Shown: positions 2,953-20,907 of the stretch, one piece after another
How positions within the stretch are numbered: position 1 is the first letter of the stretch
How the letters are laid out: each line of letters opens with the position of its first letter
Origin: Seohaeicola zhoushanensis
GTDB lineage: Bacteria > Pseudomonadota > Alphaproteobacteria > Rhodobacterales > Rhodobacteraceae
Reading direction: 5' to 3'
DNA: 64,000 bases
Assembly: GCF_014656415.1 (NCBI RefSeq)
Contig: NZ_BNCJ01000003.1
Coordinates: 107,098-171,097 of the forward strand
Notes under the pieces: generated by a model
Databases searched by the model: none
What the model was told of the DNA's origin: nothing
The model's input: only the letters and a program-made list of their open reading frames with translations
Program-made: the position numbers and the translations under genes

Positions 2953-5277
2953 CTACGCCGACCGCAGGCGACGGCCCGGTGTCAGTTGCTCCACCGCCTG
3001 CCAGATCGCGTCACGGTCGATGCGGAAATGGCGGTAGAGATCCTGGATGGTGCCGGTCTGACCGAAGGCCGCCACGCCAAGCGGGATCACCCGGTGCCCC
3101 GAGACCGACCCCAGCCAGGACAGCGCCAGCGGATGTCCGTCGAGCGCGGTGACCAGAGCGCAGTCGCGTGGCACCCCGGCCAGCAGCCGCTCCACCGGCG
3201 AAAGCTGCTGCGCCCCGCCCCTGGCCCGCTCGACCAGCGCAGAGGACCATTGCGCGTGTAGCCGGTCGGCCGAGGTCACCGCCAGCACCCCGATATCCCG
3301 GCGGGCATCGGCGAGGAAGCCGGCGGCCGCGATGACCTCGGGCGCGACGGTGCCCTGGTAGACCAACACCACCTCGCAATTCGGCCCCGGCGGACGAAGC
3401 CAGTAGGCGCCATCCAGCACGCCCTGACGGAAGCCCTCGTCCGAGCGCGGCCCGATCTGCTCGATCGGGTTGGTCGAGAGCCGCAGATAGACGGACCCGC
3501 CCTCCTCGGCCTGGAGATGCTCAAAGGCCCATTCCATGATGACCGACAGCTCGTCGGCGAAGGCCGGTTCGAAGGAGGTCAGCCCCGGCTGTGAAATGCC
3601 CACCAGCGGCGTCCCGATCGACTGGTGCGCCCCGCCCTCGGGGGCCAGCGTCACCCCCGAGGGCGTGCCCACGATAAGGAAACGCGCGTCCTGGTAGCAG
3701 GCATAGTTCAAGGCGTCGTGCCCCCGTGCAACGAAGGGGTCGTAGACTGTCCCGATGGGCAGCAGGCGCTCCCCGAACAGCGAATGCGACAGCCCCGCCG
3801 CGGCGAGCGCGAGGAAGAGGTTCATCTCGGCGATGCCGAGTTCGAGGTGCTGCCCGTCCGGTGCAAAGTCCCATTTCGCGGTCGAGGGGATCTGCGCCTT
3901 GCGGAAGAGGTCTTCCTGCGGGCTGCGCGCGAAGAGCTTGCGCCGGTTCACCCAGGGTCCGAGGCTGGTGGTGCCGGTCACGTCGGGCGAAGTGGTGATG
4001 ATGCGCTCGGCCAGCGGCCCGTCCGAGCGGGCGATGCCATCGAGGATCTTGCCGAAGGCCATCTGGGTGGAGATTTCACGATCCTTCGGGGCCGCAAGCG
4101 CCGGCACGGCGACCGGAGCGCTGGCGTGGCGGCGTGCGCCCTGGCGGAAGAAGGGCACCTGGTCGAGGAAGGCGCGGAAGGCCGGCACGTCAGGGACCGT
4201 TTCGAACAGATCCCACTCGGCCCCCTCCGCGACCCCCATATGGCGCTGCCATTCGGCCATTTGCGCCTTGGTCATCAGGCCACCGTGGTTGTCCTTGTGC
4301 CCGGCGATCGGCGTACCCCAGCCCTTGATCGTATAGGCCAGGAAGCAGGTGGGCCGGTCGTGGTCGATGGCGGCGAAGGCCTCGGCCATGGTGTCGACGC
4401 AGTTGCCGCCGAGGTTCTCCATCAGCGCCGCCAGTTCATCGTCGCTGCGCCGCTCGATCAGGGCGCTCACCTCGCCCTGGTCGCCGAGGTCGTCCATCAG
4501 CCGCTTGCGCCATACCTTGCCGCCCTGGAAGGTCAGCGCCGAGTAGAGCTGGTTCGGACAGGCATCGATCCAGTCGCGCAGGGCCGCGCCGCCGGGTTCG
4601 GCAAAGGCGGCGCGCTGCAGGCGACCGTATTTCAGGCGCACGACCTCCCAGCCGAAGGCGTCGAAGATCTTCTCGATCCGGCCCCAAAGCCCCTCACGCA
4701 CCACCCCGTCCAGCGACTGGCGGTTATAGTCGATGATCCACCAGCAGTTGCGCAGGTCGTTCTTCCAGCCTTCCTGTAGGCATTCGTAGACATTGCCCTC
4801 GTCCATCTCGGCATCGCCGACCAGCGCGACCATGCGCCCCTCGGGCACCGCCGCACCCCAGGTCTTGGCGCGGACATAGTCCTGCATGATCGAGGCAAAG
4901 GCGGTCATCGCGACGCCGAGGCCGACCGAGCCGGTCGAGAAATCCACGTCGTCGACGTCCTTGGTGCGGCTCGGGTAGGACTGGGCGCCGCCATAGCCGC
5001 GAAAGGCCTCGAGCTTGTCGCGAGTCTGGTTGCCCATGAGATACTGCATCGCATGAAACACCGGCGAGGCATGGGGTTTGACCGCGACCCTGTCCTGCGG
5101 CCGCAGCGCCGAGAAGTAGAGCGCCGTCATGATCGACACCATCGAGGCCGAGGAGGCCTGGTGCCCGCCGACCTTGATGCCGTCGGGGTTGGGGCGGATG
5201 TGGTTGGCGTGGTGGATCATCCAGTGCGAAAGCCACAGCAGGCGGCGTTCGACGGTCTTGAGATGCGAAACGGACAT
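2953..5277 (-). CDS. pyruvate-dehydrogenase E1-like (AceE/MdeB-type) 2-oxoacid dehydrogenase
   Basis: 774-aa thiamine-diphosphate enzyme of the homodimeric E1/transketolase superfamily. The N-terminal half has HPNPDGIKVGGHQASSAS-like features and the TPP-binding stretch GDAEMDEGN ... IIDYN (residues about 161-196). The C-terminal half has the pyrimidine-binding and transketolase C-terminal regions. It is shorter than E. coli AceE (about 890 aa) and matches MdeB, the proposed 2-ketobutyrate dehydrogenase E1 of Pseudomonas, which is also partnered with an Lrp-type regulator. No E2 or E3 gene is nearby, so it would have to borrow those or work as a stand-alone decarboxylase. The substrate is inferred. 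It is divergent from the Lrp gene. Confidence 0.75.
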   Translation of the reverse strand: MSVSHLKTVERRLLWLSHWMIHHANHIRPNPDGIKVGGHQASSASMVSIMTALYFSALRPQDRVAVKPHASPVFHAMQYLMGNQTRDKLEAFRGYGGAQSYPSRTKDVDDVDFSTGSVGLGVAMTAFASIMQDYVRAKTWGAAVPEGRMVALVGDAEMDEGNVYECLQEGWKNDLRNCWWIIDYNRQSLDGVVREGLWGRIEKIFDAFGWEVVRLKYGRLQRAAFAEPGGAALRDWIDACPNQLYSALTFQGGKVWRKRLMDDLGDQGEVSALIERRSDDELAALMENLGGNCVDTMAEAFAAIDHDRPTCFLAYTIKGWGTPIAGHKDNHGGLMTKAQMAEWQRHMGVAEGAEWDLFETVPDVPAFRAFLDQVPFFRQGARRHASAPVAVPALAAPKDREISTQMAFGKILDGIARSDGPLAERIITTSPDVTGTTSLGPWVNRRKLFARSPQEDLFRKAQIPSTAKWDFAPDGQHLELGIAEMNLFLALAAAGLSHSLFGERLLPIGTVYDPFVARGHDALNYACYQDARFLIVGTPSGVTLAPEGGAHQSIGTPLVGISQPGLTSFEPAFADELSVIMEWAFEHLQAEEGGSVYLRLSTNPIEQIGPRSDEGFRQGVLDGAYWLRPPGPNCEVVLVYQGTVAPEVIAAAGFLADARRDIGVLAVTSADRLHAQWSSALVERARGGAQQLSPVERLLAGVPRDCALVTALDGHPLALSWLGSVSGHRVIPLGVAAFGQTGTIQDLYRHFRIDRDAIWQAVEQLTPGRRLRSA

Positions 5278-5414
5278 GCGCTGCAGCCTCCTTGCAGTCG
5301 TTTCCGCGGTTTTCGCTCAGATCGGGGAGTGAAACCTTGCGTTTTGCGCCTGAATTGGGAGAGATATAGCCATATCAACTAGAGATTCCGTACTTCTTGG
5401 AGATATCAGACAGC
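5278..5414. promoter_or_regulatory. divergent promoter region, E1-like gene / Lrp gene
   Basis: 137-bp divergent intergenic region, AT-richer around 5350-5400 (ATATAGCCATATCAACTAG), as expected for an Lrp/AsnC-controlled divergent promoter. I can point to no defined operator. The minus-strand start is preceded by GGAGGCTGCAGCGC, an SD for the E1-like gene. Confidence 0.4.
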
Positions 5415-5867
5415 ATGGACGAACTCGATGGCCGAATCCTGCGGGCATTGCGGCAGGATGGGCGGATCTCGATCACCGACCTGGCCGCGAAGGTCGGGCT
5501 GAGTGCCACGCCCGTTGCCCGCCGCGTCCGGCAGTTGGAGGAGGACGGCGTCATCACCGGCTATTCGGCCGAGATCGACGAGGCGAAGGTCGGCAGCGGG
5601 TTCTCGGTCTTCGTCTCGGTCAAGCTGGACCGGCAGATCGACGAGGCCCTTGCCACCTTCGAGAAAGCGATCGGCGAGTTTCCCGAAGTGGTCGACTGCT
5701 GGCTGATGACGGGCAATCGCGATTACCTGATGCGCGTCGCCACCGCCGATCTGGTCGCATTCGAGCGGTTTCTCATCAACCGGCTGACGCGCGTGCCCTG
5801 CGTGGCCTCGATCGAATCCTCGATCCCGCTGCGCCGGGTCAAGTCGGGGCAGTCGCTCCCGGCCTGA
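5415..5867 (+). CDS. Lrp/AsnC family transcriptional regulator
   Basis: 150-aa regulator. The N-terminal AsnC-type helix-turn-helix covers about residues 3-60 (LAAKVGLSATPVARRVRQLE is the recognition region). The rest is the alphabeta RAM/ligand-binding domain with the typical PEVVDCWLMTGNRDYL signature. Amino acids or 2-oxoacids are the usual effectors. It faces the E1-like gene, and the MdeR/MdeB precedent suggests it activates that gene. ATG at 5415 gives the standard length; a TTG six codons upstream is possible. Confidence 0.9.
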   Translation: MDELDGRILRALRQDGRISITDLAAKVGLSATPVARRVRQLEEDGVITGYSAEIDEAKVGSGFSVFVSVKLDRQIDEALATFEKAIGEFPEVVDCWLMTGNRDYLMRVATADLVAFERFLINRLTRVPCVASIESSIPLRRVKSGQSLPA

Positions 5868-5922: not shown

Positions 5923-6534
5923 TCATGCCAGCGGCGCGCAGCCCTGCCGCAGGTTGCGAACGAACTGCCGGGCGACATCGGTCGCCGTCAACCCGCCGCC
6001 TTCGCGGAACCAGAAGGGCGCGAAGTTGAGCGACCCGAGCACCTGCAGCCGCAGCACGTTCGGCTGGACGTCGGGCCGCAGGTCGAGGCCGGCGAAGAGG
6101 TCGCGGAAGACGTCCTCGTAGCGGCTGCGCTGTTCTTTGATCTGCTCGTTGATCGCGCCACGCTCTTCCGGGAAGTTCGGCGAGATGATGTTGACGAGGT
6201 TGCGGCTTTCGATCAGCCCCTCGAAATGCGCGACAGCAGCGTTTTCCAGCTTTTCCCACGGCGTCTTGCCGGCCTCGATGGCCTCGACCACGCGGTCATA
6301 CATCCGGTCCACCACGCGCTGGTGGATCTCAATGAGCATGTCCTCCTTGGACTTGAAATGGTGGTAGAGCGAGCCGGGCAGGATGTTGACCGCCGCCGCG
6401 ATATCCCGCATCGACGTGCCCTCGAAGCCCTTCTGGGCGATCAGGTCGGCTGCCTTGCGCAGCAGTTCCTCGCGGCGGCTCTCGCTTTTCGAGCCCTTGC
6501 CGTCCTGCCGGGGCTTCACGTTCGGGTTTCCCAC
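5923..6534 (-). CDS. TetR family transcriptional regulator
   Basis: About 203 aa. The N-terminal TetR helix-turn-helix is clear (AADLIAQKGFEGTSMRDIA followed by ILPGSLYHHFKSKEDML), with a helical ligand-binding domain after it. No ATG precedes the HTH. GTG at 6534 has GAGG 7 nt upstream and is preferred; GTG at 6519 is the alternative. The gene is divergent from the enoyl-CoA hydratase, and the shared 15-bp element at 6587-6601 lies between them, so autoregulation is likely. Two more copies of the element at the other divergent promoters up to 17.5 kb make it the probable local repressor of the whole CoA-pathway region. An acyl-CoA effector is inferred. Confidence 0.85.
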   Translation of the reverse strand: MGNPNVKPRQDGKGSKSESRREELLRKAADLIAQKGFEGTSMRDIAAAVNILPGSLYHHFKSKEDMLIEIHQRVVDRMYDRVVEAIEAGKTPWEKLENAAVAHFEGLIESRNLVNIISPNFPEERGAINEQIKEQRSRYEDVFRDLFAGLDLRPDVQPNVLRLQVLGSLNFAPFWFREGGGLTATDVARQFVRNLRQGCAPLA

Positions 6535-6586
6535 TGGCTGTGACCTCGCTGCTGCTCGACCTGTCGGGTCGCTGGACTGCCAACTT

Positions 6587-6601
6587 ATCAAATGTTTGTT
6601 T
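6587..6601. promoter_or_regulatory. TetR operator candidate, copy 1
   Basis: ATCA-AA-TGTTTGTTT, located between the tetR and enoyl-CoA hydratase genes. It shares the TGTTTGTTT half and 2-nt spacing with copies at 13902 and 17457; its left half is ATCA rather than AACA. Confidence 0.6.
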
Positions 6602-6654
6602 GTTATTCCATAGCGGATGTGCTGTGATTGTCCAAACAGTCAGGAAAGCGAACT

Positions 6655-7464
6655 TTGCCCCAAGGTAGCGTCAAATTAAGGTCGGATGGCGACATTTCTC
6701 ACCTGTCCTTCAGCAACCCCGACGATGGGCTGATGGATGAGGCCATGGAGCGCGAATTTCTCGCCGCCATCGAGACGGTCATCGCCAGTCAGACCCCCGC
6801 CTGCGTCCTCTCCGGCGAGACGCCCGGTTACTTCGTCCGCCACTACGATCTCAAGGTCCTCGAGCGGCGCGCCGAGTGGATGGCGCGGAAAGGCCTTCAG
6901 TTCAGCGCCGACAGGCCGGTGCCCGAGGCCCCCATCCACACCGCCACGCGCCTGATGGAAACTTCCGGCACGGTCTTCTTCGCGGCGTTGAACGGCACGG
7001 CAATGGGCGGCGGCTTCGAGATCGCGCTGGCCTGCGATTTCCGCCTTGTGCAACAGGGGCCATTTGTCTTCGGGCTGCCCGAGATCAACCTCGGGCTGCT
7101 GCCGGGGGCCGGCGGAACCCAGCGTTTGCCAGAATTGGTCGGGCCGGCGCGCGCGCTGGAGATCGCCCTGCTGGGCGAAACGCTCGACCCCGCCGCGCTG
7201 GTCGCCGCCGGGCTGGCCACGGGCCCGCTGCGCGAGGATGCGGTAGCGGCGGCGACGGAGCTGGCGCGTCGGATCGCCAAGCAACCCACCCCCGCCCCCG
7301 CGCATATCAAGTCGCTGGTGCGCGCGGCGGCGGCAATCGGGCCGCAGGAGGCGCGGTTCGGTGCCGAGCGCGCCCTGTTCTGCGACCTGATGCTGCGCGA
7401 GCGCAGCCGCGAGCTGGTGCGCGAGGGGGCGGCCGGCCGCCGGAGCATCACCGACCTGCCCTGA
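6655..7464 (+). CDS. enoyl-CoA hydratase/isomerase family protein
   Basis: About 269 aa, crotonase fold. The oxyanion-hole and catalytic regions are present: ALNGTAMGGGFEIALACDF and LPEINLGLLPGAGGTQRLPE. Both glutamates typical of true hydratases are there (GGGFE and LPE). It would hydrate a 2-enoyl-CoA in beta-oxidation. TTG at 6655 is chosen because AGGAAAG lies 6 nt upstream; another TTG at 6628 lacks an SD. It is alone on the plus strand, divergent from tetR and convergent with the thiolase 7 nt away, so it is controlled by the first TetR-type site. Confidence 0.85.
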   Translation: MPQGSVKLRSDGDISHLSFSNPDDGLMDEAMEREFLAAIETVIASQTPACVLSGETPGYFVRHYDLKVLERRAEWMARKGLQFSADRPVPEAPIHTATRLMETSGTVFFAALNGTAMGGGFEIALACDFRLVQQGPFVFGLPEINLGLLPGAGGTQRLPELVGPARALEIALLGETLDPAALVAAGLATGPLREDAVAAATELARRIAKQPTPAPAHIKSLVRAAAAIGPQEARFGAERALFCDLMLRERSRELVREGAAGRRSITDLP

Positions 7465-7471
7465 GGCGCGC

Positions 7472-8731
7472 TCAGGCGCCGGGGGCCTCGAGCAGGATGA
7501 CCGAACAGGCGGCCTCGTCGAAGCCGATGACGCCGCCGCCGTTCTCGGCCAGGGCGATGTCGGCCTTCTGCGCCTGACGCTCGCCCGCCTCGCTGCGCAG
7601 TTGCAGCGCCAGTTCGTGGATCATTGACAGGCCCGTTGCGCCCACCGGGTGGCCCTTGGACACCAGCCCGCCGGAGAGGTTCACCGGCAACCGGCCACCC
7701 AGCCGGGTATGCCCCTCGGCCACGAAGGCGCCGCCCTTGCCGTCCTCAGCGAAGCCCAGCATTTCCAGCTGGAATATCTCGCAGAAGGAGGTGGCGTCAT
7801 GTACCTCTACCAGGTCGACGTCGGCGGCGCTCAGGCCCGCCTTGGCATAGGCCTTCTGCGCGGCGACCCGGCTGAGGCCCGGCTCGCTCGCGGCGCGATA
7901 CTTGCCGCCGGTCAGCACCGAGCCGCGCACCTTGATCGCGCGCTCGCGCACCGCTCGGTCCATGCCGGCCAGCCTGTCGCCAGAGACCAGCAGCGCCGCC
8001 GCCGCGCCGTCGCCGATGGGGGCGCACATGGCGCGCGTCAGCGGCCAGGAGACCTCGCGGTCGGCCAGGGCCTCGTCGACCGAGACCTCGAAGCGATATT
8101 GCGCCTTGGGGTTCATCGAGCCGTGCCAATGGTTCTTCGAGGCGGCGATGGCGATCTGTTCCTGGGTCGTGCCGTGGTGCTTCATGTGCCAGGCCGCCTG
8201 CATGGCGTAGGTGTTCATGAAGACCGTGCCGCCGCCGCCGTTCGGCTCGAACGGCTTGCCGGCCTCGTGCCCCATCTCGGCGTAGTAGCTGTGCCATTCC
8301 TCGGGATCGAGTTGGTCGATGCCGCCTTCGAAGATTTCCAGCGTGCGCCCGCCGTCGCCGGCGAAGAAGGTCTTTTCCACGCCGATGGCCATGGACATCT
8401 CCATGTCGCCCGAGGCCACGTCCTTCCACGCGCCGTGGAAGGCCATGGAGGCGGTGGCGCAGCCGCCCTCGACGTTGATCATCGGGACGCGTTCGGGAAA
8501 CAGCCCCTCGCGCACGAGCGGGGTGAAACAGACCTGTCCGCGGATGTTGCGCTGGCCGAAGGTGCCCATGCCGCAATTGCCGAACCAGGCCTGTTCGATG
8601 TCGCTGCCGCTGTCCAGCCCGGCGTCGCGGAGCATGTCGAGATAGGCCTCGCGCGCGAGGGCCTTGAAGCTGTCCTGCGGGCGTTTGCCGAAGGCGGTGC
8701 AGGAGGTGCCGATTACATAGACGTCGCGCAT
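7472..8731 (-). CDS. SCP2-type thiolase (lipid-transfer-protein thiolase family)
   Basis: 419-aa thiolase. The nucleophile Cys91 is in VEGGCATAS; an EVHDATSFCE segment replaces the NEAFA of classical thiolases, which marks the SCP2/lipid-transfer group; and GHPVGATG is near the C-terminus. These enzymes cleave 3-ketoacyl-CoAs, often branched or side-chain substrates, or take part in retro-aldol complexes. It is the last gene of a five-gene minus-strand operon (P450, thiolase, ligase, enoyl reductase, this gene), with 1 nt between it and the preceding reductase. Confidence 0.85.
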   Translation of the reverse strand: MRDVYVIGTSCTAFGKRPQDSFKALAREAYLDMLRDAGLDSGSDIEQAWFGNCGMGTFGQRNIRGQVCFTPLVREGLFPERVPMINVEGGCATASMAFHGAWKDVASGDMEMSMAIGVEKTFFAGDGGRTLEIFEGGIDQLDPEEWHSYYAEMGHEAGKPFEPNGGGGTVFMNTYAMQAAWHMKHHGTTQEQIAIAASKNHWHGSMNPKAQYRFEVSVDEALADREVSWPLTRAMCAPIGDGAAAALLVSGDRLAGMDRAVRERAIKVRGSVLTGGKYRAASEPGLSRVAAQKAYAKAGLSAADVDLVEVHDATSFCEIFQLEMLGFAEDGKGGAFVAEGHTRLGGRLPVNLSGGLVSKGHPVGATGLSMIHELALQLRSEAGERQAQKADIALAENGGGVIGFDEAACSVILLEAPGA

Positions 8732-8732
8732 G

Positions 8733-9719
8733 TCATTCTCCGACGAAGAGGATCTTGCCGTCGCGCCCGGCTGCTGCCGCGTGGGCCATGGCCTCGCGGT
8801 GCTGGCTCAGCGGGTAGCGGGCGGCGACTTCGGTGTGCAGGCGGCCCTGGGCCATCTGCTCGGCCAGGAAGCCGTTGAGCCGGCGGATCGCATCGCGGTC
8901 GGCCTTTGCGAACCAGTCGGACAGCCAGAAGCCGGTCACGGTGATGTCGCGGAACACAAGGTCGCGGGCGTCGAGCGCGCAGGGCTCGCCCGAGAGCAGC
9001 CCGTAGACGACAACCGCGCCGCCCTTTTCGAGGCTGGCCGCCAGCGCCGCCGTCGATGCGCCGCCGACGGCGTCGAGCGCGAGCTTCGGACGGATGCCGC
9101 CGGTCGCCGCGAGGATGCGGTCGGCCAGATCGTTGTCGCCCTTGTCGACCAGCACCACGTCGGCGCCTTCGGCCTTCAGATCGTCGGCGAGACCGTCGCG
9201 CCGCACGATATTGACGGTGCGGATGCCGCGATCGCGGGCGAAGCGGGCGACCAGCCGGCCCACGGCCGAGTTCGCGGCGTTCTGCACCACCCAGTCGCCC
9301 GGCGCGAGGTCGCGGTAGTCGCGCAGCATGATGTCGGCGGTCGAGGGGTTGGCGCGCATCATCGCGGCCTGTTCGGGGTCGATGCCCGCCGGCGCGGGCA
9401 CGGCCATGCGCGCGTCGAGGATTAGCGTATCGGTCCACAGACCGCGCCCCACCGGCAGCACCGCGTCGCCGGGCGCCAGCCGGTCGACCCCCTCGCCCAC
9501 CGCGTCGACGATGCCATAGGCGCCATGGCCCGGCGTGTCCGGCAGCGGTTCGGGTTCGGCGCCGTAGCTGCCTTCGATGGTCAGCAGGTCGGCGGGGTTG
9601 ATCGTCATGACCCGCAGCCGCAGCCGCACCTCGCCCGGCCCCGGCAGCGGGTCGGGCGCTTCGACCAGGCGCAGCACCTCGGTCGGGTCGCCGTGGCGGT
9701 CGTACACCAGCGTCTTCAT
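8733..9719 (-). CDS. MECR/ETR-like NADPH-dependent 2-enoyl reductase (MDR superfamily)
   Basis: 328-aa zinc-independent medium-chain dehydrogenase. The pattern INPADLLTIEGSYG near residue 40, the GDWVVQNAANSAVGRLVARFA nucleotide-binding segment and GIRTVNIVRR match the mitochondrial 2-enoyl thioester reductase (ETR/MECR) group rather than quinone oxidoreductases. It could reduce or interconvert an enoyl-CoA intermediate. Its start overlaps the stop of the upstream acyl-CoA ligase gene as ATGA, indicating translational coupling. Confidence 0.75.
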   Translation of the reverse strand: MKTLVYDRHGDPTEVLRLVEAPDPLPGPGEVRLRLRVMTINPADLLTIEGSYGAEPEPLPDTPGHGAYGIVDAVGEGVDRLAPGDAVLPVGRGLWTDTLILDARMAVPAPAGIDPEQAAMMRANPSTADIMLRDYRDLAPGDWVVQNAANSAVGRLVARFARDRGIRTVNIVRRDGLADDLKAEGADVVLVDKGDNDLADRILAATGGIRPKLALDAVGGASTAALAASLEKGGAVVVYGLLSGEPCALDARDLVFRDITVTGFWLSDWFAKADRDAIRRLNGFLAEQMAQGRLHTEVAARYPLSQHREAMAHAAAAGRDGKILFVGE

Positions 9720-11413
9720 GGCTTGCTCCGTTTCTTGAGGTCGCGCAGGTCGATGATGCCCGGCGCGTGGCGCGGGTCGTCGAGGCCGGGGAAGATCAGC
9801 CCCTTGCGCACCTTCTGGGTGCCGGTGCGGGGCAGATCGTCGACGAAGGCGACCCAGCCCGGCAGCTTGTAATAGGCCACCAGACGGCGACCGTGTTCAA
9901 AGACCGAGCGGGCGGTTTCCGCGTCCCGCGCCGCGCCGTCCACCGGGATGATGCATGCCATCACCTCCTCGTCGCGCATCTCGTCGGTGACGCTGATGAC
10001 TGCGACCGCGGCCACCGCCGGGTGGCCGATCAGCGCGTTCTCGACCTCGGCGGCCGAGATGTTCTCGCCCGAACGGCGGATGATGTTCTTGCGCCGCTCG
10101 ACGAAGTGCACCATGCCGTCCGGCTCCTGGGTGACCACGTCGCCGGTGTGGAACCAGCCGCCCTGCCAGGCCTCGGCGGTGGCCTCGGAGTTCTTGAGGT
10201 ATTCGCGGAAGAAGCCCCGGCGCGGGTCGGGTCCCGGCGCGCGCACCACCAGTTCGCCCTGCGCGCCATGGGGCACCTCGCGGCCCGCCTCGTCCCAGAC
10301 CTGGGCTTCGAGGTCGTCGTAGGGCTTGCCGAAGGCGCGGGTGCGGATGCGGCGCGGTTCGTGGCAATCGGCCAGGAAGCGGCCGGTTTCGCTCATCCCC
10401 CAGACCTCGACCATGGCGACGCCGAAGCGTTCCTCGAAGGCGGCGTGCAGGTCGGGGTCGAGCCCCGCGCCAAGACCGAAGCGCAGCCCGTGGCCGCGAT
10501 CCTGCGGCGCGGGCGGGCGCTTCATCAGTATGGGCGGGATGATCCCGAGGTAGTGCATCGCCGTGGCGCGGGTGGCGGCGATGTCCTGCCACCAGCTGTC
10601 CGGGTGGAAGCGGTCGGGCAGGATCAGGCAGTTGCCGGTGAGGATCAGCGCCGTCAGCGTGTTGATGCCAGCATTGACGTGGAAGACCGGCAGCGGCACG
10701 AACAGCCGGTCGCCGCCGTGGCGCAGGGCCAGCCGCCCGCCGTGGCGTGCATAGCCGAGGCCGACGGCGAAGTGATATTCGTGGTCGATCACGCAGCCCT
10801 TGGGCCGCCCCGTGGTGCCCGAGGTATATATCAGCGCCGCCTCGCTGGCCCGGCCCGGACGCTCGGGCCGCGCGCCGGTGACTGGCGCCAGCGTCGCCAG
10901 CGCGGCCTCGTCCAGCGCCGGTGTGCCGAGCTTGCCGGCCACGCGCGAGAGCTGGTCCATGTGCCCCGCGTGGCCGAGCGCGAGGACCGCCTCGGAGTGC
11001 GACAGCAGGTATTCCAGCTCGTGGTCGAGGTAGTCGGGATTGACCGGGATCTGCGTGGCCCCGACGGCATAGAGCGCGAGCTGGTTGAACAGATGCTCGG
11101 GCCGGTTGTCGAGCATCAGCGCGACCCGGTGCCCCGGCCCGTAGCCCGCCGCGCGATAGATCGCGGCGCGCCGTTCGACCTCGGCGCGGGCCTGCGCGAA
11201 GGTGATCTCGGCGCCTTCGGGGAGATAGGCGCGTCCGGGCCGGGCGGGAATGCACAGGAAGGCATTGTCCGGATGGGCCTCGGAGGCCAGGACGAAGGCA
11301 TCGTAGACGGTGGCCGAACGGGCGGCCATCGCCTCGGCCGCGCGGGCGGCGGGTGCGCCGTCGATCTCGGGCGGCAGCCCGGCCGGCGCGGTTGCGGTTG
11401 CGGCGCCGGTCAT
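9716..11413 (-). CDS. AMP-dependent acyl-CoA synthetase
   Basis: 565-aa adenylate-forming ligase with the AMP-binding P-loop IYTSGTTGRPKGC, the WGMSETG motif, the GWFHTGDV motif and the C-terminal catalytic lysine region RTGTQKVRKG. It would activate a carboxylic acid to its CoA thioester. ATG at 11413 overlaps the thiolase stop (ATGA). The same reading frame stays open upstream through the thiolase, but that stretch is the antisense-like shadow frame typical of GC-rich DNA, not a fusion. Confidence 0.88.
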   Translation of the reverse strand: MTGAATATAPAGLPPEIDGAPAARAAEAMAARSATVYDAFVLASEAHPDNAFLCIPARPGRAYLPEGAEITFAQARAEVERRAAIYRAAGYGPGHRVALMLDNRPEHLFNQLALYAVGATQIPVNPDYLDHELEYLLSHSEAVLALGHAGHMDQLSRVAGKLGTPALDEAALATLAPVTGARPERPGRASEAALIYTSGTTGRPKGCVIDHEYHFAVGLGYARHGGRLALRHGGDRLFVPLPVFHVNAGINTLTALILTGNCLILPDRFHPDSWWQDIAATRATAMHYLGIIPPILMKRPPAPQDRGHGLRFGLGAGLDPDLHAAFEERFGVAMVEVWGMSETGRFLADCHEPRRIRTRAFGKPYDDLEAQVWDEAGREVPHGAQGELVVRAPGPDPRRGFFREYLKNSEATAEAWQGGWFHTGDVVTQEPDGMVHFVERRKNIIRRSGENISAAEVENALIGHPAVAAVAVISVTDEMRDEEVMACIIPVDGAARDAETARSVFEHGRRLVAYYKLPGWVAFVDDLPRTGTQKVRKGLIFPGLDDPRHAPGIIDLRDLKKRSKP

Positions 11414-12594
11414 GCCACCCGCTCGATCAGCATGGCAAGCCCCTGCCCCGCGCCGAGGCACATCGACAGGATCGCGCGCCGGCCGCCGGTCTGCCTGAGG
11501 TGTTCCACCGCGGTCATCGTCATGCGCACGCCGGTCAGCCCCGGCGGATGCCCGACCGAGATGCCGCCGCCATAGAGGTTGTGCAGATCGCGCGGAATGC
11601 CCAGGTGGCGCTCGGCGTGGAGGTTGACCACGGCGAAGGCCTCGTTGATCTCGAAATAGTCGATGTCCGAGATCTTGAGCCCGGTCTTGTCGAGCAGCCC
11701 CCGGATGGCCGGCACCGGGCCATGCCCCATGATCCGCGCCGGGACGCCGACGCAGTGCCAGTCGACCAACCGTGCCTCGGGCGCGCAGCCCTCGGCCTCC
11801 ATCGCCGCGCGGTCGCCGACGATCACGAAGCCGGCCCCGTCGGTCACCCCCGAGGAGTTCCCCGCGGTGACCTTGCCGCCGGGCCGGAAGGCCGGCTTGA
11901 GGCTGGCGAGCTTGTCCAGCGTCGCGTCTGCGCGCGGGCTTTCGTCGGTGTCGAAGACGCGGGTGGACTTGCCGTCGGGCACCTCGATCGGCACGATCTG
12001 GCGCGCGAGGAAGCCGTTCTGGATGGCGGCGATCGCCCGCGCCTGGCTCATCGCGCCCCATTCGTCCATCGCGTCGCGGTCGTATTGGAACTCTTCCGCC
12101 AGGTTCTCGGCGGTTTCGCCCATGTATTCCTGGCTGAACGGGCAGCGATAGGCCCAGTCGAGCATGTCCTCCATCTCGATCGGTCCGCGCGGAGCGCCCC
12201 AGCGCACCCCCGCCACGGCATGGGGCGCGCGGGAATAGCACTCGGCCCCGCCGGCCAGCGACAGGCGCGAGTGGCCGCTTTCGACCTGCTGCCCGGCCGA
12301 GATGATGGCCTGCAGGCCCGAGGCGCAGGCGCGCACCACCTGCAGGGCGCCCGCGTCCTCGGGGATGCCGGATTTCACCCCCACGACCCGCGCCGCGAAG
12401 AGCGTGTCGCGGTCGGTGGGAACCGTGGTGGTGAAGACCATGTGATCGATCTTGTCGGCGGCGATGCCCGACCTGGCCACGCAGGCCCGGGCGGCATGGC
12501 CCGCCATGTCGGTCAGTTCGACGCCCTTGAGCGAGCCGCCGAAATTGCCCAGTGCCGTCCTCGTGCCGGCGGCAATCCCTATCTCCTGCGCCAT
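11410..12594 (-). CDS. acetyl-CoA acetyltransferase-type thiolase
   Basis: 394-aa classical thiolase. Nucleophile Cys90 is in VVRACASGLQA; NEAFA, the GHPPGLTG histidine motif and the second catalytic Cys in SMCLGAGQG are all present. Two usual residues differ: GHPPGL in place of GHPLGA, and CLGAGQG in place of CIGGGQG, which may reflect an unusual acyl group. It cleaves 3-ketoacyl-CoA to acetyl-CoA. It sits 27 nt downstream of the P450 gene. Confidence 0.88.
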   Translation of the reverse strand: MAQEIGIAAGTRTALGNFGGSLKGVELTDMAGHAARACVARSGIAADKIDHMVFTTTVPTDRDTLFAARVVGVKSGIPEDAGALQVVRACASGLQAIISAGQQVESGHSRLSLAGGAECYSRAPHAVAGVRWGAPRGPIEMEDMLDWAYRCPFSQEYMGETAENLAEEFQYDRDAMDEWGAMSQARAIAAIQNGFLARQIVPIEVPDGKSTRVFDTDESPRADATLDKLASLKPAFRPGGKVTAGNSSGVTDGAGFVIVGDRAAMEAEGCAPEARLVDWHCVGVPARIMGHGPVPAIRGLLDKTGLKISDIDYFEINEAFAVVNLHAERHLGIPRDLHNLYGGGISVGHPPGLTGVRMTMTAVEHLRQTGGRRAILSMCLGAGQGLAMLIERVA

Positions 12595-12621
12595 TCGCGC
12601 CTCCTCCCTCGTAATCCGTTG

Positions 12622-13860
12622 TTATCCGCGCAGCCGCACCGGCAGCCGCCGGGTGCCGCGCGGCACCATCGCGTCGAGCCACTCCGGCGGCTCGTCATCC
12701 AGCGCCAGGTCCGGGAACCGCTTGATCAGCTCCAGCACCGCGACGCGCCCCTCCTCGCGCGCAAGGCGCGCGCCGAGGCAGACGTGAATGCCCTGCCCGA
12801 AGGTCAGGTGGCGGTTCGGGTTGCGCCGGATGTCAAAGCGGTCGGGGTCCTCGAAGATGCGCGGGTCGCGGTTGGCCGAGTTGATCATCACGAAGACACG
12901 TTCGCCCTCGCGCAGTTTGCGCCCCTCGATCTCGTGATCCTGCGCCACCACGCGAACCAGCGCATTGGTCGGCCCGTCGTGGCGCAGCACCTCTTCGATG
13001 GCGCCGTCGATCAGCGCCGGGTCGGCGCGCAGGGCGGCCAGCTGATCGGGGTGGCGCAGCAGCAGGAGCGAGGCGTTGCCGATCAGGTTCGTCGTCGTCT
13101 CGTGCCCGGCAAAGAGGATCAGGATGCAGGTGGCGACAAGTTCGTCCTCGGTCAGCTGGTCGCCCTCGTCGCGGGCGTTGATGAGGTCCATCAGGAAGCC
13201 GGGGCGCGGGTTGGCGCTGCGCTCGTTGATGATCTCGCGGAAGTAGGAGGACATCTTCTGGCAGCCGCGCGCCGCGCGGTGGTACTTGTCGTCGGCATTG
13301 CGCGCGCCGCCGATGAAGACGGCCATGTCGTCGGACCAGCTCTTGAATTCGGCCAGCATCTCGCGCGGCACTTCCAGCATGTCCATGATGACATAGGCCG
13401 GAACCAACAGGGCGAATTCGCGGATCAGGTCGATGCGGTCGGCTTGGCGCTCTTCCAGCTGGTCGAGCAGGTGGTGCACGATCTCTTCGATTCCGGGCCG
13501 CATCGCATCAACCGCCTTCGGCGTGAAGGCATGGCGCAGGATCCGGCGGACCCGCGTGTGGTCAGGCGGATCGCGGAAGGCGAGCCAGAGGTCGAGATAC
13601 TTGACGATATCCGACAGCAGCGCGGCGTCCTGCGGCGGCAGCGAGCTGTAGAACTGCATCAGCCGCCGCACCGAGAGGTGATCGGACAGCAGCAGGTCGC
13701 GGACATCGGTGTACCGGCTGATGATCCAGGACTTCAGCGAGGGGCTCCAGTGGACCGGATCCTCCTCGCGCAGCCGCGCGTAGATCGGAAAGGGGTCGGC
13801 CATGGTGGCCGAATCGCTCGGGTCGTAGACGATCGGCTTGTCGGTCATTGCGGTATTCAT
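12622..13860 (-). CDS. cytochrome P450
   Basis: 412-aa soluble bacterial P450. The I-helix oxygen-activation motif FAGHETTTN is present, as is the haem-cysteine loop FGQGIHVCLGARLARE near residue 358; an E..R-type K-helix segment lies at EEVLRHDGP. It would hydroxylate the substrate with an external ferredoxin and reductase, neither of which is in the window. ATG at 13860 has GAGG 5 nt upstream. It is the first gene of the minus-strand operon and is divergent from an acyl-CoA synthetase, with the TetR-type site between them. Confidence 0.92.
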   Translation of the reverse strand: MNTAMTDKPIVYDPSDSATMADPFPIYARLREEDPVHWSPSLKSWIISRYTDVRDLLLSDHLSVRRLMQFYSSLPPQDAALLSDIVKYLDLWLAFRDPPDHTRVRRILRHAFTPKAVDAMRPGIEEIVHHLLDQLEERQADRIDLIREFALLVPAYVIMDMLEVPREMLAEFKSWSDDMAVFIGGARNADDKYHRAARGCQKMSSYFREIINERSANPRPGFLMDLINARDEGDQLTEDELVATCILILFAGHETTTNLIGNASLLLLRHPDQLAALRADPALIDGAIEEVLRHDGPTNALVRVVAQDHEIEGRKLREGERVFVMINSANRDPRIFEDPDRFDIRRNPNRHLTFGQGIHVCLGARLAREEGRVAVLELIKRFPDLALDDEPPEWLDAMVPRGTRRLPVRLRG

Positions 13861-13900
13861 CGCACCTCGTTTCCTGACGGGGTTGCCAGTGGTTGCAACC

Positions 13901-13916
13901 AAACAGATGTTTGTTT
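13901..13916. promoter_or_regulatory. TetR operator candidate, copy 2
   Basis: AAACA-GA-TGTTT is a perfect 5-bp inverted repeat, continued by GTTT. It sits 41 nt upstream of the P450 start and about 100 nt upstream of the acyl-CoA synthetase start, so it can control both directions. Confidence 0.65.
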
Positions 13917-14017
13917 ACTTTTATCGCATGTGCATCTTTGGCACAAGCGGTGGAATCGCGGCGGCCGAGAAGGTGCGCGCCACCCGTCCGGAGAGCAAGC
14001 AATGCAGGGAGGAAAGC

Positions 14018-15589
14018 ATGACCGATCTCGTCGACGATCCGCAGGTATATCTGCCGGATCTTTTCGCCACCCACGCCCGGTTCCAGCCGGAACGGGAGGC
14101 CGTCATCTGCGGCAGCGTTCGCCGCACATGGCGCGACTTCGACGCCGCCATCAGCCGGGTCGCGCATGGTCTTCTGGCCAGCGGGCTGCAGAAGGGCGAC
14201 AAGGTCGCGCTGCTGATGGGCAATTCGGTCGAGATGCTGGAATGCCTGTTCGGCATCGTGCGGGCGGGCGGCGTGGCGGTTCCGCTGTCGGGGATGCTGA
14301 CGGCCGAACAGCTGACCGGGCTGCTGGTCGACTGTGACGCCATCCAGGTCTTCGTCTCCTCGGAGTTCCGCGACAAGGTCGAGGGCAACCGGGCGGCGGT
14401 GCGCAATGTCGCCGCCGGGCGCTGGATCGCGCAGGGGTTCGACGGCGAGGGCTGGGTTCCGCTGGCCGCGCTGACCGAGGGCCAGCCCGCGACCCCGCCT
14501 AACGTGCGCTATTCCCTGCAGGACGAGTTCAACATCATCTATTCCTCGGGCACCACGGGCCTGCCCAAGGGCATCGTGCAGACCCATGGCGCAAGGCTGC
14601 ACTGGGCGTTTTCCAACGCGGTCGAGATGGGCTTCACCTCGACCAGCCGGGCGCTGACCACCACGGCGCTTTATTCCAACGGGACCTGGCTGATGATGCT
14701 GCCGGTGCTCTTCGCCGGCGGCACGCTGGTGGCGATGCGGGCCTTCGACGTGGGCGAATTCCTCAGCCTCGTGCCGCAGGAGCGCATCACCCATACCTTC
14801 ATGGTGCCGGCGCAATACGGCATGGTGCTGGATCACCCGGACCTGGACGGCGCCGACCTTTCCTCGCTGCGGACCCTGCTTTCGGCCGGCTCGGCACTGC
14901 GCCAGGACGTGAAGGCACGGATCATCGAACGCATCTCGCCCGGCCTCTACGAGCTTTACGGCTATTCCGAGGGCTTTGCCTCGATGCTCAAGCCGCATCA
15001 GCACGCCGAGAAATTCGCCACCGTGGGCACGCCCGTACTGGGGTTCGAGGTGCGCATCCTTGACGAGGAGGGCAACGAATGCCCGCGCGGAACGCCCGGA
15101 GAGATCGCCGGCTATGGCGCGGGGCTGATGAAGGGCTATCACAAGCGCCCCGAGGCCACCGCCGAGCTGATCTGGCGCGACGAGCGCGGGCGAACCTTCC
15201 TGCGCTCGGGCGATATCGGGATGATCGACGAGGACGGCTTCCTCTGCATCGTCGACCGCAAGAAGGACATGATCATCTCGGGCGGGTTCAACGTCTTCCC
15301 GACGGATGTGGAGGCGGTAGTGGCCAAGCACCCCGACGTCTTCGATGTCGCCGTGATCGGCGTGCCGCATGACAAATGGGGCGAAACCAGCCTGGCGCTG
15401 GTCATTGCCCGCGATGCGGCGGCCATCGACTGCCGGGCGCTGCGCGACTGGGCCAACGAGAGGCTGGCCAAGACGCAGCGCCTGATCGACGTGGAGCTGC
15501 GGGACGAGTTCCCGCGCAATGCGCTTGGCAAGGTGATGAAACGGCTGCTGCGCGATCCCTACTGGTCGGCCGAGAAGGCGGCACAATGA
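14018..15589 (+). CDS. AMP-dependent acyl-CoA synthetase (second)
   Basis: 523-aa adenylate-forming CoA ligase: P-loop IYSSGTTGLPKGI, YGYSEG acyl-binding region, LRSGDIGMID hinge region and C-terminal lysine motif FPRNALGKVMKR. ATG at 14018 has AGGGAGGA just upstream; the frame is open further 5' but without coding character. It differs clearly from the first ligase, suggesting two acids or two stages of one pathway need CoA activation. Its stop overlaps the ketopantoate-reductase-like start (ATGA). Confidence 0.88.
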   Translation: MTDLVDDPQVYLPDLFATHARFQPEREAVICGSVRRTWRDFDAAISRVAHGLLASGLQKGDKVALLMGNSVEMLECLFGIVRAGGVAVPLSGMLTAEQLTGLLVDCDAIQVFVSSEFRDKVEGNRAAVRNVAAGRWIAQGFDGEGWVPLAALTEGQPATPPNVRYSLQDEFNIIYSSGTTGLPKGIVQTHGARLHWAFSNAVEMGFTSTSRALTTTALYSNGTWLMMLPVLFAGGTLVAMRAFDVGEFLSLVPQERITHTFMVPAQYGMVLDHPDLDGADLSSLRTLLSAGSALRQDVKARIIERISPGLYELYGYSEGFASMLKPHQHAEKFATVGTPVLGFEVRILDEEGNECPRGTPGEIAGYGAGLMKGYHKRPEATAELIWRDERGRTFLRSGDIGMIDEDGFLCIVDRKKDMIISGGFNVFPTDVEAVVAKHPDVFDVAVIGVPHDKWGETSLALVIARDAAAIDCRALRDWANERLAKTQRLIDVELRDEFPRNALGKVMKRLLRDPYWSAEKAAQ

Positions 15590-16524
15590 CGGCGCCGTTT
15601 TCGGTCGCCATCGTCGGCGCAGGGGCCATCGGCGGCGTGCTGGCGGCCCATCTCGGCAAGGCCGGGGTCTCGGTGCGCGTTTTGGCGCGCAACCGGACCC
15701 TGGAAGCCTGGCAGCGCGACGGGATCACCGTGACCACCGATGAGGGCACCCTGCACCACCGCCCCGACGCGGTGAGCGATGACCCCGCGGCGCTCCGCCC
15801 CGTCGATCTCGTGCTGGTCACGGTCAAGGGTCAGGACACCGACGCCGTGGTTCCCGCGATTCGCGCATTGCTCGGCCCCGAGAGCCGGGTGCTGAGCTTC
15901 CAGAACGGCCTCGACGGGCTGGAGCGGCTGATCGCCGCCTTCGGGCCCGACCGCGTGCTGGCGGGCGTGACCTATGTGCCGGCCAGTGTCACCGCGCCGG
16001 GACAGGTGCGCCTCACCGGGCCGGTGCGCCGGTTTGTCTTCGGTCCGGCGGCATCCTCGGCCGCCTCGCCGCATATCGGGCAGCTGGCGCGCCTCGGCAA
16101 CGCACATGGCCTTGTCATGGAGCCGATGGACGACCCGATGCCGGCGATCTGGGCCAAGTTCACCATGCTGACGGCCTTCCACATGGTCAGCGCCCTTACT
16201 CGCCTGCCGCTGGGCGGGTGGATCCGCCAGCCCGAGACCGCCGACCTCTACGAACGCGCGATGGCCGAGACCGCCGCCGTTGGCCAGGCCCGAGGCATCG
16301 CCCTGCCCCCGGATCTCGTCGAGGCGAACATGCGGTTCAGCCGTGAAAACGCCGATCCCCGGACCCGCGCCTCGATGCTGGAAGATCTGGAGAACGGCCG
16401 CCCGCTGGAACTCGACAGCACCGTGGGCTGGCTGATAAGGGCCGCCGCCAAGGCGGGCATCCCGGTTCCGGTGCACGACATCTGCCATGCCCTGCTGAAG
16501 CCCCACCTCGATGGGGCTTCATGA
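15586..16524 (+). CDS. ketopantoate reductase family (PanE/ApbA-like) oxidoreductase
   Basis: 312 aa. An N-terminal Rossmann motif VAIVGAGAIGGVLAAHL (GxGxxG) and the family signatures VLVTVKGQDT and LSFQNGLDGLE are present, followed by the helical C-terminal domain. Classical members reduce 2-ketopantoate with NADPH, but members within catabolic operons often reduce other 2-oxo acids. Because it is translationally coupled to a CoA ligase in the TetR-site region, a catabolic role is more likely than pantothenate synthesis. Confidence 0.82.
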   Translation: MTAPFSVAIVGAGAIGGVLAAHLGKAGVSVRVLARNRTLEAWQRDGITVTTDEGTLHHRPDAVSDDPAALRPVDLVLVTVKGQDTDAVVPAIRALLGPESRVLSFQNGLDGLERLIAAFGPDRVLAGVTYVPASVTAPGQVRLTGPVRRFVFGPAASSAASPHIGQLARLGNAHGLVMEPMDDPMPAIWAKFTMLTAFHMVSALTRLPLGGWIRQPETADLYERAMAETAAVGQARGIALPPDLVEANMRFSRENADPRTRASMLEDLENGRPLELDSTVGWLIRAAAKAGIPVPVHDICHALLKPHLDGAS

Positions 16525-16545
16525 CTCGGGCCGTGTTGGCCGGGC

Positions 16546-17319
16546 CTAGCGGGCGTAATCGGCGCCCATCCGGTCGAGCCTGCGCTTGAGCGCCGCGAAC
16601 TCGCGGGTGCCGAGATCGGCCCCCAGGCCGGTCATCGCCTGCTTGTGGGTCAGATCCTGAACCGCCTTGCTCGGGAAATTCAGCGCGCCGCCCGCCTGGG
16701 CGGCGATCTGGATGCGGCAGGCCTGTTCGAGATAGAACATCATGATGAAGGCCTCGGGGATCGACCGCCCGCAGGCCAGCAGCCCGTGATTGCGCAGAAT
16801 CAGCATCTGCTTGTCCGACCCCAGATCGGCCAGCAGACGCTTCTGCTCTTCCATGTTGAGCGCGAGACCCTCGAACTCGTGGTAACCGATCAGGTCCTTG
16901 TAGAGCAGCCCGGTCTGGCTGATCGGCAGCAATCCCTCGGCCTGTGCCGAAATGCCGACACCGGCGGTCGTGTGGGTATGGATGATGCAGGTCAGGTCGT
17001 GCCGTTCGCGGTGCACGCAGGAGTGAATCACGAACCCGGCCGGGTTGATCGGCGAGCCATCGCTCGAGATCACGTTGCCGTCCAGATCGACCTTCACCAG
17101 GTTCGACGCCGTCACCTCCTCGTAGAGCAGCCCGAAGGGGTTGAGCAGGAAATGCTCTTCCGGGCCGGGCACGCGCGCCGAGATGTGGTTGTAGATCAGA
17201 TCATCCATTCCGAAATGCGCGATGAGCCGATATGCGGCGGCAAGGTCGATCCGGGTCTGCCATTCCTCCTGTGTCATGCCCGGTCGGGGGGTGGATTCGG
17301 CGCTGTCGAGCGGTGCCAT
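16546..17319 (-). CDS. class II aldolase/adducin family protein
   Basis: 257 aa. The fold is recognised by YNHISARVPG and the metal-binding histidines in IIHTHTTAGVG and LRNHGLLACG. Members are zinc-dependent aldolases, decarboxylases or dehydratases. ATG at 17319 has GGAGGAG 8 nt upstream. It is divergent from the DctP-type TRAP operon with the third TetR-type site between them, so it likely acts on the imported compound or on a retro-aldol intermediate of it. Confidence 0.85.
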   Translation of the reverse strand: MAPLDSAESTPRPGMTQEEWQTRIDLAAAYRLIAHFGMDDLIYNHISARVPGPEEHFLLNPFGLLYEEVTASNLVKVDLDGNVISSDGSPINPAGFVIHSCVHRERHDLTCIIHTHTTAGVGISAQAEGLLPISQTGLLYKDLIGYHEFEGLALNMEEQKRLLADLGSDKQMLILRNHGLLACGRSIPEAFIMMFYLEQACRIQIAAQAGGALNFPSKAVQDLTHKQAMTGLGADLGTREFAALKRRLDRMGADYAR

Positions 17320-17456
17320 TCGATGAACTCCTCCATTTGTTCGGCCCAAAGTGAACCCTCCCGCGGCAAGCCGGGCTTCGAACTGCCGCCAATCGGTATT
17401 TTCCGGGCGGAACGGTTTTTTGGGTGTTGCTAGAATACATGTTTAACGGCAATTTG

Positions 17457-17471
17457 AACAGGTGTTTGTTT
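17457..17471. promoter_or_regulatory. TetR operator candidate, copy 3
   Basis: AACA-GG-TGTTTGTTT lies between the class II aldolase and TRAP operons, 63 nt upstream of the dctP-like start. It matches copy 2 at all positions outside the spacer. A related ACATGTTTAA lies at about 17437. Confidence 0.65.
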
Positions 17472-17533
17472 GGCTGACTTCGCAAGCCGGTGCAAACAGC
17501 GATCCACAGCATCGCGCATCAGGGAGGAAACAG

Positions 17534-18640
17534 ATGACGATCAACCGCAGGACATTCTTTCGCAATTCGGCAGCCGCAGGATTCGGCGCCACGGCCGCGA
17601 CCCTGGCCACCCCTGCCCTTGCCCAGGGCAAGCGGCAGCTGACCATGGTCATGGCCTGGCCGCACAACTTCCCGGGCCTCGCCTCGATCGCCTACAACTG
17701 GGCCAAGGCCGTCGAGGAGCTGAGCGACGGAAATATCACCGTGAAGGTCAACGCCGCCGGCGAACTGGTCGGCGCCTTCGAGGTCTTCGACGCCGTGGGC
17801 CAGGGCACCGCCGACGCCTATCACGCCTCGCCCATGTTCCTGGCCGGCAAGTGGCAGGCGGCCACCTTCTTCGGACTCGTTCCCTTCGGGCTGAACGCCA
17901 TGGAGCACTGCGCCTGGATGTATTTCGGCGGCGGCCAGGACCTGCAGGACAAGGCCTATCGTGAACTGCTGAACCTCAAGGCCTTCCCCTGCGGCCATAC
18001 CGGCACCCAGATGGCGGGCTGGTTCACCAAGGAGATCAACAACCTGGAGGACTTCCAGGGGATCAAGATGCGCTCGTCGGGCATCGCCGGCGAGGTGATG
18101 CGCCGCGTCGGCGCCAGCGCGGTGATGATTCCCCCTCAGGAGATCTTCACCTCGCTGCAATCGGGCGCCATCGACGCGACCGAGCTGTGCTGCGCCTGGC
18201 TCGACAGCGCCAATGGGTTCCACCAATACGCCAAGTATTACTACACCCCCGGCTGGCAGGAGGTGAACAGCGCTGGCGAGATCGGCCTGAATGCCGACCT
18301 GTGGGACGATCTGAGCGCCCATGAGAAGCTGATCATGGACCACGCGGCCCGCTCGGCCAACTCGATCAACATCGGCGAATGGCCCTATTACAACGCCAAG
18401 GCGATGAACACGCTGCGCACCGAACACAAGGTCGACGTCCGCGGATATCCCGACGACGTGGTGCTGGCCCTTGCCAAGACCTCGCAGGAGGTCGTTGCCG
18501 AACTGGCCAATTCCGACGCCCACGCGGCCGAGATCTATGCCAGCTGGAAAGCCTACCGCGATGAGGCCATCCAGTATTCGGCCCTGGTCGACTACCCGAT
18601 GTATCGCGCGCGCAAGCTGGCCTTCGAAGCCGGCGCCTGA
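17534..18640 (+). CDS. TRAP transporter substrate-binding protein, DctP family, TakP-like
   Basis: 368-aa periplasmic receptor with a Tat signal (RRTFFRN then a hydrophobic stretch ending ALAQG at about residue 33). The body matches the 2-oxoacid/lactate-type (TakP) subfamily: AAGELVGAFEVFDAV, PFGLNAMEHCAWMYFGGGQ, GWFTKEINNLEDFQGIKMR with the ligand-binding Arg. In that subfamily the motif after the second domain is usually DATEW; here it is DATEL, so a ligand-contacting Trp is missing and the substrate may differ. ATG at 17534 has GGGAGGAAA upstream. It is the first gene of a dctPQM operon. Confidence 0.9.
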   Translation: MTINRRTFFRNSAAAGFGATAATLATPALAQGKRQLTMVMAWPHNFPGLASIAYNWAKAVEELSDGNITVKVNAAGELVGAFEVFDAVGQGTADAYHASPMFLAGKWQAATFFGLVPFGLNAMEHCAWMYFGGGQDLQDKAYRELLNLKAFPCGHTGTQMAGWFTKEINNLEDFQGIKMRSSGIAGEVMRRVGASAVMIPPQEIFTSLQSGAIDATELCCAWLDSANGFHQYAKYYYTPGWQEVNSAGEIGLNADLWDDLSAHEKLIMDHAARSANSINIGEWPYYNAKAMNTLRTEHKVDVRGYPDDVVLALAKTSQEVVAELANSDAHAAEIYASWKAYRDEAIQYSALVDYPMYRARKLAFEAGA

Positions 18641-18650
18641 GCGCGAAAAG

Positions 18651-18675
18651 GTCCGGCGCGCCATTCGCGCCGGAC
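18651..18675 (+). promoter_or_regulatory. intercistronic stem-loop, dctP-dctQ gap
   Basis: A 10-bp perfect stem (GTCCGGCGCG / CGCGCCGGAC) with a 5-nt loop lies in the 60-nt gap after the binding-protein gene. It resembles the stem in the same position in the TAXI operon. A likely role is higher expression of the binding protein than of the permease. Confidence 0.55.
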
Positions 18676-18700
18676 ATCCAGCCTTTCTTGGAGTCACCCC

Positions 18701-19243
18701 ATGCAGGCAATCGACAAGGTCATAGCCATGATCGATCGGATCACCGAAGTCTTCGGCCGTCTGATCTCGTGGCTGGTCCTTTACATGGTTCTGATGACCT
18801 TTGCGAACGTGGTGATGCGCTATGTCTTCGGCGTATCGATCATCTCGCTCTACGAATCCGTCCTCTACGCCTTCGCCATCGCGATGTCCTCGCTGGGCGG
18901 ATGGGCGCTGTTGCGGGATCAGCATGTCCGGGTCGACATCTTCTACAGCGTGCTCGGCGCCCGCGGCAAAGCCATCGTCAACCTGGCGGGCACCGTGGTC
19001 TTCCTGGCGCCTATGCTCTGGGTGCTCTGGACCAGTTCGATTCCCTACATCGAACGCTCGTGGAAGCTGAAGGAAGCCTCGAACGAAGTGGCGGGGATTC
19101 CCTATCTCTACGTTCTCAAGACCTTCATCCTCGTCTTCGTGGCGCTGCTCGCCTTCCAGACGGTCTCCTTCTTCCTGCGGAACCTGCGGATCGCCCTGAT
19201 CGGGCATGATCCGGCGACCGCCCCCAAAGCGGACGAGTGCTGA
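18701..19243 (+). CDS. TRAP transporter small permease (DctQ family)
   Basis: 180 aa with four hydrophobic helices (about residues 20-40, 52-72, 90-110, 135-160) and the WALLRDQHVRVDIFY signature of DctQ proteins. It forms the membrane complex with the large permease encoded 3 nt later. ATG at 18701 is preceded by TTGGAG. Confidence 0.9.
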   Translation: MQAIDKVIAMIDRITEVFGRLISWLVLYMVLMTFANVVMRYVFGVSIISLYESVLYAFAIAMSSLGGWALLRDQHVRVDIFYSVLGARGKAIVNLAGTVVFLAPMLWVLWTSSIPYIERSWKLKEASNEVAGIPYLYVLKTFILVFVALLAFQTVSFFLRNLRIALIGHDPATAPKADEC

Positions 19244-19246
19244 TCC

Positions 19247-20827: not shown

Positions 20828-20847
20828 TCCACCCGCTGAACGACCAC

Positions 20848-20871: not shown

Positions 20872-20907
20872 GATCCATTTTCACTCCTGCTATCTGTTGG
20901 ACGAAAG

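Follow-up and report, generated by a model that had tools for sequence, protein, structure and literature searches.

Positions 5923–20827 of the window (the whole 64-kb stretch of DNA analysed) hold a gene cluster of ∼15 kb that probably degrades an imported organic acid. At its left end lies tetR (5923–6534, − strand), which encodes a TetR/AcrR regulator of 203 amino acids (Pfam TetR_N, 3.3e-17; TetR_C_24, 1.1e-14) from a likely GTG start at 6534. Divergent from it is ech (6655–7464, + strand), of the enoyl-CoA hydratase/isomerase family (ECH_1, 1.1e-26), whose likely TTG start at 6655 sits behind AGGAAAG. A leftward operon on the − strand opens with the gene for a CYP107-like cytochrome P450 (12622–13857; p450, 4.5e-38). 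It continues with an acetyl-CoA acyltransferase, a BktB-like thiolase (11410–12594; nearest solved relative BktB, 8e-91), acyl-CoA ligase 1 (9716–11413, start at 11413; AMP-binding, 2.3e-60), an MDR-type zinc/quinone oxidoreductase-like reductase (8733–9719; ADH_zinc_N, 1.8e-16; quinone_pig3, 1.2e-32), and an SCP2/BbsB-type thiolase (7472–8731; Thiolase_C_1, 2.3e-39), for which the nearest solved proteins are a benzoylsuccinyl-CoA thiolase subunit and SCP2-thiolase.

On the other side of the P450 gene, the + strand carries acyl-CoA ligase 2 (14018–15589; AMP-binding, 1.8e-74; nearest solved relative feruloyl-CoA synthetase) and a ketopantoate-reductase-like (ApbA/PanE) oxidoreductase (15583–16524; ApbA, 1.2e-37). 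A class II aldolase/adducin-family gene (16546–17319, − strand; Aldolase_II, 1.9e-48) is followed by a third operon on the + strand, encoding a TRAP transporter: dctP, the solute-binding protein with a Tat-type signal (17534–18640; DctP, 1.2e-42), dctQ, the small membrane subunit (18701–19243), and dctM, the large membrane subunit (19247–20827), which ends the operon ahead of a terminator-like hairpin at 20847–20872. The dctQ gene is kept beside dctP and dctM in four related genomes (G129, G125, G149, and G963). Between them, the solved relatives hint at several substrate directions: CYP107 P450s, feruloyl-CoA synthetase, benzoylsuccinyl-CoA thiolase, and BktB.

Two neighboring features were noted by eye. 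A pyruvate-dehydrogenase-E1-type gene (2953–5277, − strand), divergent from an Lrp/AsnC-type regulator gene (5397–5867, + strand), adjoins the tetR cluster, and the gap between these two genes (5278–5396), just outside the cluster, is without the operator motif described below. A second TRAP-type transporter pair, comprising a secreted binding protein and a large membrane protein, occupies 56–2864, at the start of the window.

A Palindrome in Three Divergent Gaps

The preliminary description had placed a 9-bp core in three divergent gaps, one of them beside tetR, and this is exact. The core, TGTTTGTTT, occurs on the + strand at 6593–6601, 13908–13916, and 17463–17471, with exactly three copies in the window. 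These fall between tetR (−) and the enoyl-CoA hydratase gene (+), between the P450 (−) and acyl-CoA ligase (+) genes, and between the class II aldolase gene (−) and TRAP dctP (+). The longer form AWCA-N2-TGTTTGTTT is also exact at 6587, 13902, and 17457. Dinucleotide shuffles of the window contain the core 0.04 times on average and once at most, in agreement with the earlier judgement that chance recurrence is very small; the Poisson chance, calculated post hoc, is ∼6e-11 for three copies in 494 bp of gap and ∼2e-6 for three in any given 15 kb. Nor is the core abundant elsewhere, the outcome that had been named as refuting a shared operator: the 78 contigs of the genome, 5.51 Mb in all, contain only eight copies, three of them in the cluster, and inspection of the context of the other five found none comparable to the cluster.

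The asymmetric form of the motif can be refined: the core is one arm plus the spacer of a palindrome, CAAAC-N4-GTTTG. We redefine the operator as this palindrome, which, judged by comparison with related bacteria, is very likely to be bound by the cluster's own TetR. The putative operator O2 (13900–13913, P450/acyl-CoA ligase 2 gap), CAAAC-AGAT-GTTTG, is the sole perfect CAAACNNNNGTTTG in the 5.5-Mb genome. O1 (6589–6602, tetR/ech gap) reads CAAAT-GTTT-GTTTG, with one mismatch, and is overlapped by the open frame of tetR, which extends to 6591, upstream of the likely start. O3 (17455–17468, class II aldolase/dctP gap) reads TGAAC-AGGT-GTTTG within TTGAACAGGTGTTTGTTTGG and is a weak site, with two mismatches. 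Six transcription units lie between 5923 and 20827, and the three putative operators together cover all of them.

In several sites, both in the window and in relatives, the half-site is repeated at a 4-bp step (CAAACAAAC), an arrangement that could allow two dimers to bind overlapping palindromes. A sigma-70 promoter scan of the region found none, so that only weak patterns hint at an overlap between operators and promoters. In the dctP gap, a TTGC ∼20 bp upstream of the operator (window 17427–17458 and the equivalent alignment positions) is invariant in five genera and is a possible −35 element.

A genome-wide regulon was considered and rejected. With up to one mismatch, CAAACNNNNGTTTG matches 28 places per strand across the whole genome, compared with 41 for the reversed control, and the best extra candidates are found next to the genes of a Dps-like protein (L063) and an ArsR-family protein (L141), both unrelated to the pathway. 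Because outside sites do not exceed the control level and the best scorers adjoin unrelated genes, the regulon is most likely local. The L141 locus has, near position 1501, a long palindrome of its own, TCATTCAA-N8-TTGAATGA, adjoining an ArsR-rhodanese-type gene; this is probably that regulator's own operator.

Conservation of the Palindrome in Related Genomes

Several genera of the family contain orthologs of the TetR (about 43%–53% identity), located within rearranged versions of the catabolic cluster; farther afield, other families and a Novosphingobium MAG contain more distant ones (37%–41%) beside related P450s. A contig search with the TetR returned mostly unrelated TetRs and one useful locus (L022). 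Gene order varies among the orthologous clusters; the palindrome stays before the P450 gene and most other transcription units, and an O2-type site precedes the P450 in all TetR-linked orthologs.

In an unbiased dyad count over 23 gaps, set by gene coordinates and including three from the window, the highest-ranking dyads are pieces of the palindrome; they occur in as many as 11 gaps, compared with a shuffle maximum of 7. Among 28 gaps from other genomes, CAAAC-N4-GTTTG is present with at most one mismatch in 21 and perfect in 14, while permuted or altered control half-sites reach 0–5 of the same gaps and are never perfect. A matrix built from the sites of other genomes only, when scanned over the window, ranks O2 first (30.9 bits), O1 second (30.4 bits), and O3 third (16.5 bits), setting aside shifted registers of the three; the next unrelated place scores 6.7 bits. 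The frame of the palindrome was chosen with the window in view, so the independence of the test extends to the letters of the sites and not to their frame.

These results bear on the alternative that, in a GC-rich genome, an AT-rich 9-mer recurs in promoter gaps by chance. Two points favor this idea: the choice of the word was post hoc, and such gaps have a higher AT content than genes. The shuffles, the whole-genome counts, and the window-free matrix nevertheless all speak against it, and the finding that other genera conserve the sites refutes it, leaving a probability that we consider negligible.

The tetR/ech gaps of relatives hold weaker sites, with a recognizable CAAAC/GTTTG-type site at two mismatches in three genomes (G149, G371, and G963) and at three mismatches in another (G366). 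Operator sites lie beside tetR in most orthologs and not in all: in G129, no clear site was found before tetR itself. In the dctP gap, an identical 20-mer containing O3 is present in the corresponding gaps of G149 and G125, and O3 is the main conserved block across five genera, TTGAACAGGTGTTTGTTTGG being kept in three genera and diverged in two more within a gap that is otherwise poorly conserved. One genus has two operators exactly 50 bp apart in its tetR/P450 gap (L112, 10692/10742; L113, 9283/9333; L114, 10596/10646), which suggests cooperative or looped binding.

The site also follows the regulator. Homologs of the P450 (38%–77% identity) were gathered by the P450 alone, in the family and the class, and the 300 bp upstream of each P450 gene were examined for a site with no more than one mismatch. 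The site is present in 14 of 14 homologs with the TetR nearby, defined as P450 loci with the TetR within about 9 kb plus the clusters found by TetR, the window included, and in none of the 13 without (Fisher p = 5e-8, with relatives counted as independent samples although they are not). Of the weaker P450 loci, only those extended to 20 kb enter the count, which also leaves out one locus with a site and no TetR visible on its short contig (L111).

This co-occurrence argues against a second alternative, in which some other regulator, whether a MarR, another TetR, or a global factor, recognizes the motif and by coincidence governs this set of genes, the linked TetR acting elsewhere or only on itself. 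The palindrome is close to the PsrA operator (PMC10304680), so a different TetR could read it. Set against this are the split between homologs with and without a linked TetR and the presence of the site beside TetRs that belong to this subfamily at a greater distance and have other neighbors; that the genome has a single perfect palindrome further argues against a global factor. We regard binding by another regulator as improbable. The earlier proposal, that one operator of the cluster's TetR lies at three promoters, gains support from footprinting, the window-free matrix, and site/TetR co-occurrence.

TetRs of the same subfamily at 32%–38% identity also have such palindromes beside their own genes. 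Four distant subfamily genes in other contexts carry a CAAAC-N4-GTTTG-like palindrome just upstream (L019, 5026; L020, 6052; L073, 4108; L074, 9479). At L021, a catabolic locus of another kind whose TetR is only distantly related (32%–33% identity), perfect CAAAC-N4-GTTTG sites lie at 13296 and 13323, a distance of 27 bp, and a further site lies near tetR.

The TetR Protein and Its Predicted Ligand

The regulator scores 62.4 bits for TetR_N (cut-off 24) and 55.1 bits for TetR_C_24 (cut-off 26.4), which places it in the TetR/AcrR family. Its AlphaFold2 model is all-helix (pLDDT 88.6), with TetRs as fold matches, and O1, a putative palindromic operator near the protein's own gene, is a feature of TetR autoregulation. 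The protein is not PsrA: the NCBIfam model NF053516, with a cut-off of 300, gives it 27.3 bits and matches no more than a portion of its DNA-binding half. Membership of the KstR family was likewise rejected (NF033703, 29.7 bits against 280); the protein falls far below the cut-offs of these and other NCBIfam TetR models, and no KstR2 model is among its NCBIfam matches. By these profile scores, it is a TetR-family member outside the named subfamilies tested, although it is predicted to act much as their members do.

KstR2 is the best solved relative by both sequence (9e-23) and fold (TM 0.75–0.78). This TetR repressor of the lower cholesterol pathway in Mycobacterium, whose effector is HIP-CoA (PMC5380842), acts locally on genes of CoA-thioester catabolism, as the TetR here is predicted to do. 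In contrast, the TetR here is only 27% identical, and its cluster has a P450, a TRAP transporter, and an SCP2-type thiolase; no ipdAB-type genes were recognized in the cluster, and no steroid-ring genes among the scanned cluster proteins. AibR, the isovaleryl-CoA-responsive TetR of Myxococcus, matches in fold (TM 0.77–0.84, including the ligand and DNA complex) but has 26%–30% identity and serves a different pathway, alternative isovaleryl-CoA synthesis (PMC9131029). Further fold matches are DarR, PfmR, and Bacillus FadR with acyl-CoA, AibR itself being matched with isovaleryl-CoA.

Other likenesses lie in the operator or in the neighborhood. PsrA, which governs β-oxidation in Pseudomonas and relatives, has the operator consensus G/CAAAC(N2-4)GTTTG/C (PMC10304680), matched by CAAAC-AGAT-GTTTG at 13900, and it shares the link to acyl-chain metabolism and autoregulation; its β-oxidation regulon is broad, whereas the cluster here is local. 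EdcR, the TetR repressor of the estrogen-degradation edc cluster of Caenibius tardaugens, which is induced by the steroids E1/E2 themselves, is encoded beside a cytochrome P450 in a cluster with a lipid-transfer-type thiolase and an enoyl-CoA hydratase (PMC8700777). However, its proposed operator, TnnCnnTACnAnTnGTAnnGnnA (PMC8700777), differs from the conserved CAAAC-N4-GTTTG, and the sites here do not match it.

Because the TetR resembles KstR2, AibR, PfmR, and Bacillus FadR, repression would likely be relieved by an acyl-CoA of the pathway. The gene content of the cluster, with two thiolases and a hydratase alongside its acyl-CoA ligases (also two) and TRAP importer, likewise makes relief by a CoA thioester of the imported acid, or by a product of it, the simplest account. 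A third alternative holds that the TetR binds its sites as an activator, or responds to a ligand other than a CoA ester, such as the free acid or a P450 product. TetRs with free fatty acid ligands exist, namely PsrA and its Stenotrophomonas ortholog (PMC10304680), and the fold matches include DarR, a cyclic-dinucleotide binder. We nonetheless consider this alternative unlikely, given that KstR2 is closest by sequence and fold, that AibR–isovaleryl-CoA and FadR–acyl-CoA are among the best fold matches, and that the cluster encodes two acyl-CoA ligases of its own.

A Model for the Cluster

Considered together, these data make it highly probable that the cluster at 5923–20827 is a local, autoregulated TetR regulon with a CAAAC-N4-GTTTG operator. 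In this model, a dimer of the TetR encoded at 5923–6534 would bind the palindrome in the three divergent gaps and repress six units: tetR, ech, the P450-thiolase-ligase operon, the ligase 2/ApbA operon, the class II aldolase gene, and the TRAP transporter operon. The imported acid would be converted to its CoA thioester by the cluster's ligases, and this thioester or a derivative would probably bind the C-terminal domain of the TetR and release it from DNA. The sequences show the sites, with their rarity, their conservation, and their co-occurrence with the TetR; we infer that this TetR binds them, that it represses rather than activates, that an acyl-CoA is its effector, and that the imported substrate is an organic acid. 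We read the system as a local, so far undescribed example of a familiar type: a TetR repressor that controls its own gene together with a cluster for acyl-CoA catabolism. Within the literature library covered by the search, no paper describes the cluster or the operator, and both this TetR and its pathway appear to be undescribed.

A broader reading can be offered tentatively, as somewhat more doubtful than not: the protein may belong to a TetR subfamily of Alphaproteobacteria that has gone undescribed, combines a KstR2/AibR-like ligand domain with a PsrA-type operator, and governs a transferable P450, CoA-ligase, and SCP2-thiolase island, reshuffled among genera and degrading an acid. If so, the operator logo would let all such islands be found by sequence. 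For this uncharacterized catabolic cluster, the analysis supplies a testable operator and a bounded regulon, and inducers of its promoters would reveal the substrate. That TetRs of different subfamilies appear to use nearly the same operator, CAAAC-N4-GTTTG, is also a caution for the transfer of regulons by motif.
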